DNA of 64,000 nt, taken from positions 62,001 to 126,000 of the forward strand of contig NZ_JALCYY010000004.1 of the NCBI RefSeq assembly GCF_022690685.1, written 5' to 3'. This DNA is from Anaeromyxobacter terrae. Lineage in GTDB: Bacteria > Myxococcota > Myxococcia > Myxococcales > Anaeromyxobacteraceae. Each line of letters opens with the position of its first letter. The stretch's first letter is position 1. The translations under genes and the position numbers were made by a program. This document shows, in pieces, positions 26,566 through 31,899 of the stretch. The notes under the pieces were generated by a model. That model was not told the DNA's origin. It made no database searches and saw nothing but the letters and a program-made list of their open reading frames with translations.

Positions 26566-27843
26566 ATGCGCCCTGCCCACCACGTCCTCGCACACCGGCC
26601 GCTCGTCCTCGTCCTCGGCTCGTCCGCCCTCACCGCCCTCCTGGCCTGCGGCGGCGGGACCACGCCAGCAGCCTCCCCCGATCCGGGCGCGGCCGCGGTC
26701 GACGCGCCGTCCGCCGTGGGCCCCGGGACGACGCCTGGCGCGGCCAACGCGTCCTCCCTGAGCGTCGAGCGGCTCGACGCCGCCGCCGAGTGCGACGCGC
26801 TCGTCCCGAGCTCGGCGCCCGAGCCGGTGACCGTCCAGCTGACCGCCCCGGCGGGCGGCTCCTGCGTCGCCGGGAACGCCGACGGGACCGGTGCGGTCGC
26901 GCTCGGCGTGCGCGACGCCGCGGGTGCGCTCACCTGGCAGGCGACCTCCCGGGACGGCCGCCCGCTGGGCTCCTTCGCCGCCGAGGCGCTCGTCGCCGCA
27001 CCGGACGGATGGCAGGGCCTCGCCGGGGCCGCCGGCGAGGTCGAGCACGTCGCCGTCGCTCCGGACGGCCGGGTGCGGCGCGCCTCCGCGATCTCGCCGG
27101 ACCCGGCGCTGCGCACCGGCTTCCGCTCCCGGCTCGCGCAGGATCCGGCCGGCGGCAGCGTCGTCCTCTTCCGCTCGGTGACCCTGGCGGGCAACCACTG
27201 GAACGCGCTCGACGCGTTCCGCTTCGACGCGAGCGGCGCCCCGCGCTGGCCGGAGGCGGTCGCGGTGTCGTCCGATCCGGACGCGGCCGAGCCGTACTTC
27301 ATGGCCGCCGGGGTCTCCACCACCGGCGCCGCGCTCATGCTCTTCCAGGACTCCGCCTTCCTCCGCGCGCGCTGGGTCGAGCCCTCGGGCGCGCCCGTGG
27401 CCGACGCGAGCGAGCCGGAGACGTCGGCCGCGGTCGTCGGCGACGGGCTCCGCCACGACGTGGACCTCTCTCCGCTCCTCGACGGCGGCCTCGCGGTCCG
27501 CTCGGACGGCGCCTGGCAGCGCCGCTACGCGCCGCTCGCCTCGCGCTCGGAGCCGCTGCCGGCCTGGCTCGCGGACCGCGCGCGCTGGGGCTTCCGCTTC
27601 ACGCGCGGCAACGCGGGCTACGCGGCGCTCCAGCCCGCTGGCGAGGCGTCGCCCGACTGCGCGCAGCGCATCGAGCTCGTCGCGCCCTCGGGGCGGCTCT
27701 GCGGCCGCATCACCCTGCATGAAGCCGGCTCCGGCTGCACGACCGGCGCGCTCGACCAGGGCTGGGACGGGACGGTGGTGCAGCAGTCCGGCAAGGACGC
27801 GTGCACGTTCCGCTGGTGGCCCGGGCTGCTCGCCCGCGGGTGA
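26566..27843 (+). CDS. Hypothetical lipoprotein (425 aa)
   Basis: No recognised domain. An N-terminal signal (PLVLVLGSSALTALLAC) ends in a lipobox with Cys28, followed by a Gly/Pro/Ala/Ser/Thr-rich stretch to about residue 60. The rest alternates short strands with WxxL, DGR and Trp-rich motifs, suggesting a beta-propeller or beta-sandwich on the outer or inner membrane surface. Late cysteines (DCAQRIEL, RLCGRIT, SGCTTG, DACTF) may form disulfides. It is divergent from qor and upstream of the rhodanese gene on the same strand, 97 bases away. Confidence 0.7.
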   Translation: MRPAHHVLAHRPLVLVLGSSALTALLACGGGTTPAASPDPGAAAVDAPSAVGPGTTPGAANASSLSVERLDAAAECDALVPSSAPEPVTVQLTAPAGGSCVAGNADGTGAVALGVRDAAGALTWQATSRDGRPLGSFAAEALVAAPDGWQGLAGAAGEVEHVAVAPDGRVRRASAISPDPALRTGFRSRLAQDPAGGSVVLFRSVTLAGNHWNALDAFRFDASGAPRWPEAVAVSSDPDAAEPYFMAAGVSTTGAALMLFQDSAFLRARWVEPSGAPVADASEPETSAAVVGDGLRHDVDLSPLLDGGLAVRSDGAWQRRYAPLASRSEPLPAWLADRARWGFRFTRGNAGYAALQPAGEASPDCAQRIELVAPSGRLCGRITLHEAGSGCTTGALDQGWDGTVVQQSGKDACTFRWWPGLLARG

Positions 27844-27940
27844 GGGCCCGCCGCGGCCGGCGGACCGGCCTGAACCCTCCGGCGCCTCCCAGGCTCTCAC
27901 GGCGCGGCCGTCTCCCGATCCCGCAGCCGGAGGAATGCCC

Positions 27941-28360
27941 GTGGGCCACGCCCGATTCGCCGTCGCAGCCGTCCTCGCCGCCATGGTCCTGCCTGGTGCC
28001 GCCGCGGCCCAGATCAGGACGGTCGGCGCCGACGAGGTCCGGGCGCTCGCCTCCGGCGCGCGCAAGGCGCTCCTCGTCGACAGCCGCAGCCCCGAGGAGT
28101 ACGCGCAGGCGCACCTCCCGGGCGCGATCAGCATCCCGGCGGCGTGGACGAAGGCGTACCAGAGCTCCCTCCCGAAGGACCCGGCCGCGCCCGTCGTCTT
28201 CTACTGCCGGGGCGGTGGCTGAACGCTGAGCCAGGAGGCCGCCCGTGCGGCGGCCGAGATGGGCCATACGAACGTGCTCGTCTACCCGGGTGGCTTGCCG
28301 GACTGGGTGAGCCGAGGCTTGCCCGTGGAGCGCGGCGGGGCCGGCGCGAAGCGCGGCTGA
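27941..28360 (+). CDS. Periplasmic rhodanese-like protein, in-frame TGA read as selenocysteine (candidate)
   Basis: With the TGA at 28220-28222 read through, this is a complete 139-residue exported rhodanese. The signal peptide is MGHARFAVAAVLAAMVLPGA; the mature domain has LLVDSRSPEEYAQAHLPGA, VVFYCRGGG, then the TGA, then TLSQEAARAAAEMGHTNVLV, YPGGLPDWV and the TGA stop. The interrupted loop reads C-R-G-G-G-[TGA]-T-L-S, which matches the CxGxxCxxS loop of exported rhodaneses, so the TGA takes the place of the second Cys. Reading frame, length and conserved C-terminal motifs continue past it without any other defect. Start: GTG at 27941, seven bases after GGAGG, rather than the ATG at 27935. 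The alternative is a simple nonsense mutation. Confidence 0.7.
28237..28255 (+). promoter_or_regulatory. SECIS-like hairpin after the in-frame TGA
   Basis: GGCCGCC (28237-28243) pairs perfectly with GGCGGCC (28249-28255) around the loop CGTGC, which contains GU. The loop G lies 22 bases after the TGA, inside the 16-37 base range usual for bacterial SECIS elements. Because Ala/Arg codons in GC-rich DNA easily form such stems, the hairpin alone is weak evidence. Confidence 0.45.
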
Positions 28361-31438: not shown

Positions 31439-31834
31439 TCAGCGCGCGAGGTGCCGCGCCAGATCCTGGTCGAGCCCGGCGAGGTGCTCGCGCAGCCAGT
31501 CGGAGAGCCAGTTGTGGAGCGCGAGCCCGGCGGCGGCGCTGCCGCCATCGCGCGCATGGGCGCGGCGGTGGCCCTCGAGCTCGCCGCGGAAGCGGGCGTG
31601 CGCGGCGCGGTGCTCCTCGAGGCGCGGGTAGCCGGCCCCGGCCATGAGCCGCTCCTCGGCGAGGAAGTGCCGCTCCGCGTAGCCGGTGAGGTAGGTGAAC
31701 AGCTCCTCGACCCCCGCCCGATCGCCGGTGCGCAGCGCGCGCACGAGCCGCTCGGCGCGCCGGAACAGCTCCACGTGCCCGGCGTCGATCTCGTCGACGC
31801 CGACCGCGAGCGACGGGCTCCACTCGAGCGGCAT
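31439..31834 (-). CDS. Bacteriohemerythrin
   Basis: Oxygen-binding di-iron protein of 131 residues. All seven ligands are in place: His20 (EIDAGH), His56 and Glu60 (HFLAEE), His75 and His79 (HRAAH), His117 and Asp122 (HLAGLD). The start at 31834 matches homologues (MPLEWSPSLAVGV); the frame extends 12 codons further without similarity. It follows pyruvate carboxylase on the same strand after a hairpin. A second hemerythrin at 36897 has identical ligand spacing. Likely role: O2 sensing, storage or delivery in a microaerobic organism. Confidence 0.93.
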   Translation of the reverse strand: MPLEWSPSLAVGVDEIDAGHVELFRRAERLVRALRTGDRAGVEELFTYLTGYAERHFLAEERLMAGAGYPRLEEHRAAHARFRGELEGHRRAHARDGGSAAAGLALHNWLSDWLREHLAGLDQDLARHLAR

Positions 31835-31899
31835 GCCCCGACGAGTGCGCCCATCGCGACGCTCCGTCAACGTCCCGGACGCGCGCCTTTCGGGCTTGC

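Follow-up and report, generated by a model that had tools for sequence, protein, structure and literature searches.

A rhodanese gene of Anaeromyxobacter terrae with a conserved in-frame TGA in its active-site loop, probably encoding a selenoprotein

An otherwise intact rhodanese gene of Anaeromyxobacter terrae contains a TGA codon in the middle of its active-site loop, and the question raised by this locus is whether that codon ends the protein or is read as selenocysteine (Sec). The gene lies in a stretch of 64,000 nucleotides (contig NZ_JALCYY010000004.1, positions 62,001 to 126,000), which is called here the window. An earlier note, made from the sequence alone, had proposed that a single TGA interrupts this reading frame, and direct reading bore this out: the codon for residue 94 is the sole in-frame stop before the normal one. 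The motifs reported on its two sides, the loop CRGGGUTLS as well as TLSQEAARAA and YPGGLPDWV, were all found as described. The same note had the frame continuing for 46 codons to a normal stop; the continuation held, and the number corresponds to 45 sense codons, 46 being reached when the stop is counted. The frame was taken to open at GTG, as read directly together with the GGAGG that precedes it. An in-frame ATG is also present at 27935; nevertheless, GTG is the likelier start, since a stop codon was found just upstream of it in the orthologue of a congeneric genome (G006). The features of the locus are collected in Table 1.

Table 1. Positions, within the window, of the features read or predicted at the rhodanese locus.
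Feature	Position	Strand	Remarks
Shine-Dalgarno-like GGAGG	27929-27933	+	7 nt 5' of the GTG start
Predicted selenoprotein gene; probably exported single-domain rhodanese of 139 aa with Sec94	27941-28360	+	
Probable signal peptide VGHARFAVAAVLAAMVLPGAAAA, cleavage near A23/Q24	27941-28009	+	Judged by eye
TGC, Cys89, first residue of the active-site loop	28205-28207	+	Cys throughout the family
TGA, predicted to be read as selenocysteine 94 (Cys89 + 5)	28220-28222	+	Comparison of the homologue column
SECIS-like hairpin: 7-bp stem (28237-28243 with 28249-28255), loop CGUGC (28244-28248)	28237-28255	+	
Normal stop TGA	28358-28360	+	

The product was placed among the rhodaneses by its domain score, its predicted fold and the catalytic Cys in its loop. 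The match to Pfam PF00581 (Rhodanese) spans the TGA and reached 71.7 bits against a gathering score of 22.2. A confident rhodanese fold was predicted by AlphaFold2 for the mature part (pLDDT 86.9), with low pLDDT at residues 1-20, and a Foldseek search with this model retrieved rhodanese domains with E-values down to 2e-8, GlpE among them at 2e-5. Judged by eye, the hydrophobic N-terminus ends in AAAA-Q, and a lipobox-like Cys was seen in the N-termini of several homologues; the rhodanese is probably exported to the periplasm or cell envelope.

The comparison with relatives addressed the TGA itself. The four orthologues of the same genus, with identities of 84% (G005), 76% (G006), 58% (G003) and 49% (G004), all keep the TGA within the loop consensus CRG[G/A/M/L]GU[T/S]LS, and the decay of the downstream frame that would have spoken against the proposal was observed in none of them. 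In an orthologue from another genus (G015, 43% identity) the same codon encodes Cys, giving CRGTGCTLS. The loci fetched by a profile search over 195 Myxococcota genomes were then read individually, and in 53 distinct genes the loop was readable. This was the alignment with Cys homologues suggested in the earlier note: TGA was found in 37 of these genes and TGC or TGT in the other 16 at exactly the same column. The pattern used for the reading admitted only Cys or TGA at the two loop positions, so that 37 against 16 sets TGA against Cys and does not survey every residue that could occur there. The other loop position was Cys in all 53 genes, and the frame was intact in all 36 TGA homologues besides the window gene. 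A conserved in-frame TGA aligned with Cys in other genes, one of the marks of a selenoprotein gene, is thus present here.

Furthermore, the codons downstream of the TGA appear to be under purifying selection. Between the three closest orthologues, dN/dS after the TGA was 0.14-0.25, similar to the part before it; the counts were small, the closest pair showing 7 and 8 changes, and an excess of third-position changes was not significant in two of the three orthologue pairs. On the homologue tree, which was built from few columns and has many unsure forks, nine changes between Sec and Cys were needed, at least four of them forced by well-supported branches. The window gene falls in the smaller of two clades (CRGxG[U/C]), the larger one being characterized by FYC....UxASH or UxACH. 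All eight relatives searched in the window's genus carry Sec rhodanese genes of this kind. A plasmid search gave only matches below 60% identity, and a scan of genome contigs no more than eight distant relatives; the loop was read in two of these and has Cys in both.

A hairpin with a 7-bp stem and GU in its loop had been reported at a SECIS-like distance from the TGA. This element is real, with 21 nt between the UGA and its loop, and a SECIS-type hairpin of this form just after the UGA is another mark of selenoprotein genes. Its fold energy taken alone was unremarkable for GC-rich DNA (z -1.18) and, not being significant, was not used as evidence. The comparison across relatives gave a different picture, on which the case for the hairpin rests and which lifts it above chance. 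Each of the 37 TGA genes has its apical loop starting at nt 21-23 behind the UGA (20-22 nt in between), whereas in the best hairpins of the Cys genes it starts anywhere from nt 15 to 34. The TGA genes usually carry the loop CGUGx, GGUCG or GGUC, whose second and third nucleotides are G and U, an arrangement shared with the loop GGUCU of formate dehydrogenase (FdhA) genes of the same genome; a few have CGGGC or GGC instead. When 31 TGA genes were aligned without gaps, pairing in the 7-bp stem amounted to 97.7%. Three of the pairs had changed on both sides, and the covariation of the stem was 0.231 against 0.115 in shuffled alignments, none of 500 of which scored as high. The identical columns of 16 Cys genes were 66.1% paired, no better than shuffled. 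Part of the stem conservation must come from the protein, because the stem sits in the codons of a conserved EAAR-AA helix; the Cys genes, whose products have a similar helix there, partly control for this constraint.

The loops were also seen to vary by lineage, CGUGx predominating in the window's family and its sister family f2, and GGUCG or GGUC in family f6 (loci L094-L104 compared with L022-L034 and L073-L085). At three loci (L025, L026 and L099) a 4-nt GGUC loop was found with a shifted stem, which would fit a rebuilding of the element.

The proposal also depended on a selenocysteine machinery, the lack of which would have refuted it. In the genome to which the window belongs (5.65 Mb, 99.98% complete) every component was detected: tRNA-Sec (selC; RF01852, 75.4 bits, anticodon UCA), selA (531.9 bits), selB (306.7 bits, with neighbours) and selD (394.6 bits), that is, the complete set by which membership among bacterial selenoproteins is judged. 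The selD gene carries an in-frame TGA of its own in the N-terminal active-site motif GAGUACK, and three FdhA genes with an in-frame TGA were found, followed by hairpins with the loops GGUCU, GUC and GGUCU, all containing GUC. Two other TGA-bearing rhodanese matches in this genome (C109 and C73) were rejected as Sec candidates, their TGA lying at or near the normal end.

Additionally, the distribution of TGA rhodaneses was compared with that of selA. Outside the window's family, selA scored over the cut-off in 21 of 22 genomes with a TGA rhodanese, the exception (G043) being a genome 61% complete, as against 13 of 26 compared genomes in which no TGA rhodanese was read; within the family, which composition and gene content suggest to be Anaeromyxobacteraceae, it was found in all 24 genomes searched. 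The contrast recurred inside the sister family f2, where the genus with the Cys version (G049 and G050) has neither selA nor selB over the cut-off, and the TGA-bearing genomes have both, G043 again excepted.

Taken together, these comparisons indicate, with a probability of roughly 95%, that the open reading frame is a genuine selenoprotein gene and that its UGA is read as Sec. Ribosomes supplied with SelB and tRNA-Sec would decode this codon, directed by the hairpin that follows it, as judged by comparison with the relatives. Two other explanations were weighed. The TGA could be a true stop or a misread sense codon in a pseudogene whose downstream frame is decaying; a single base separates TGA from TGC or TGG, and the hairpin on its own was not significant. 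The orthologues refute this account, because the TGA recurs at the same codon in 36 further genes with intact frames and the sequence behind it bears the signs of purifying selection, so that an artefact or a decaying gene is extremely unlikely. It is also very unlikely that the UGA is read as another amino acid (Trp or Arg), or that it serves a regulatory truncation with a functional product of 93 residues. The non-TGA homologues that were read have Cys (TGC or TGT), under a pattern that asked for Cys or TGA, and the two halves of the protein, before and behind the TGA, are equally conserved. The SECIS-like hairpin, the full Sec machinery and the almost exclusive occurrence of TGA genes in genomes bearing selA also argue for Sec.

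Regarding the function of the protein, we lean towards a persulfide/thiol redox mechanism of the Cys89-Sec94 pair. Cys89 would take up sulfane sulfur as a persulfide, like other rhodaneses, and Sec94, which surpasses the Cys that it replaces both as a nucleophile and as a leaving group, would resolve this persulfide or another oxidised thiol through a selenenyl-sulfide, to be re-reduced by a periplasmic thiol reductant. The protein would then serve as a persulfide/thiol reductase or as a fast sulfur-transfer protein of the cell envelope. Some indirect support comes from the Cys orthologue of G015, which opens a cluster of three genes on the same strand, the next two encoding another rhodanese and a flavoprotein related to sulfide:quinone reductases (SQR) (L109:2515-4594); this cluster points to a sulfane sulfur function, the match of the flavoprotein to the selenoprotein subtype of type III SQR being weak (56.6 bits, cut-off 525).

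Alternatively, the rhodanese fold might be only a scaffold for a selenoprotein with a different activity, such as that of a thiol peroxidase, the reduction of selenite or metal(loid)s, or the reduction of protein disulfides. A recent review considers most uncharacterised selenoproteins to be probably redox proteins (PMC13188914), a Cys-x4-Sec pair could perform disulfide exchange, and the copy in G004 lies near genes for an ArsM-like methyltransferase, a thioredoxin and a thioredoxin reductase-like protein. Nevertheless, the catalytic Cys of rhodaneses was kept in all the homologues read, and the G015 cluster speaks for sulfane sulfur; we regard this alternative as possible and give it somewhat worse than even odds. 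A radical SAM protein is also encoded near the Sec rhodanese of G004 (L111:1913-7100).

The statement in the earlier note that rhodanese-related selenoproteins are a known bacterial kind agrees with the literature, in which they are already catalogued (PMC9312934, PMC13188914). Five forms of rhodanese selenoproteins are listed in the 2026 review (PMC13188914). The deep-Sep paper makes no mention of rhodaneses, and none was among the 11 selenoproteins of the A. dehalogenans selenoproteome described in 2006 (PMC1794560). Form 1, from Geobacter (PF00581, motif UxxS, WP_010941598.1; PMC13188914, Table 1), resembles the window protein in having a rhodanese domain, a single Sec and the motif UxxS (U94-T-L-S97 here), a likeness of motif. 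The best NCBIfam match of the window rhodanese was TsoB (form 5, NF045694), at 64.8 bits against a cut-off of 805. As in the window protein, the TsoB motif UxxxxU has Sec at the second loop position; TsoB, however, has Sec at both positions and a long DsbD-like part, whereas the window protein has CxxxxU in 139 aa. Identity with TsoB was rejected on these grounds, the score lying below the cut-off and both the UxxxxU loop and the DsbD-like fusion being absent.

The same applied to rhodanese_LYCAU (form 3, NF041203), another small rhodanese-related (seleno)protein, which has Sec at Cys+2 (CxU) instead of Cys+5; the score was 39.6 bits against a cut-off of 115, and the window protein lacks the CxU motif. 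GlpE, the rhodanese domain of YgaP, and PspE share the common fold and the catalytic Cys with the window protein and differ from it in having no Sec. To our knowledge, such ordinary single-domain rhodaneses have no second Cys or Sec five residues on. Neither the window protein nor any scanned homologue reached the cut-off of an NCBIfam model (four TGA-type or Cys-type members were scanned).

Hence, the window gene would add a member to a known kind, the Sec-containing rhodaneses, possibly as a separate subfamily. We would suggest, tentatively and with less than even confidence, that exported Cys-x4-Sec rhodaneses form an unmodelled family of Myxococcota, distinct from the five published forms and active in the periplasm, either in sulfur transfer or as persulfide reductases of a dithiol type. 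The traits of this proposed family are its two deep clades, the repeated switches between Sec and Cys and the lineage-specific SECIS loops. Routine gene callers would cut the gene at residue 93, and dozens of Myxococcota genes are concerned. Sister genomes that naturally carry the Sec or the Cys version, the hairpin being retained in the Sec genes, offer a clean test system for what Sec adds to a rhodanese and for how a SECIS element is gained or lost inside a coding sequence.

The neighbourhood of the window gene held no informative operon partner at the locus. Directly upstream, at 26566-27840, lies a gene for a lipoprotein-like protein of 425 aa without a Pfam match, which is kept in G005 and absent from the same place in G006. 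Downstream lie opposite-strand genes for a 2-oxoacid:ferredoxin oxidoreductase, of which korB is convergent with the rhodanese gene and adjoins its orthologues in G005 and G006 as well. A small hemerythrin-domain protein is encoded at 31442-31870, between the oxidoreductase genes and a pyruvate carboxylase-like gene. Finally, the Sec rhodaneses of the larger clade (FYC....UxASH) in the window's family were repeatedly found next to a thiC-like gene, often tail to tail (loci L028, L031, L032, L037 and L047, in G001, G016, G009, G011 and G003, respectively).
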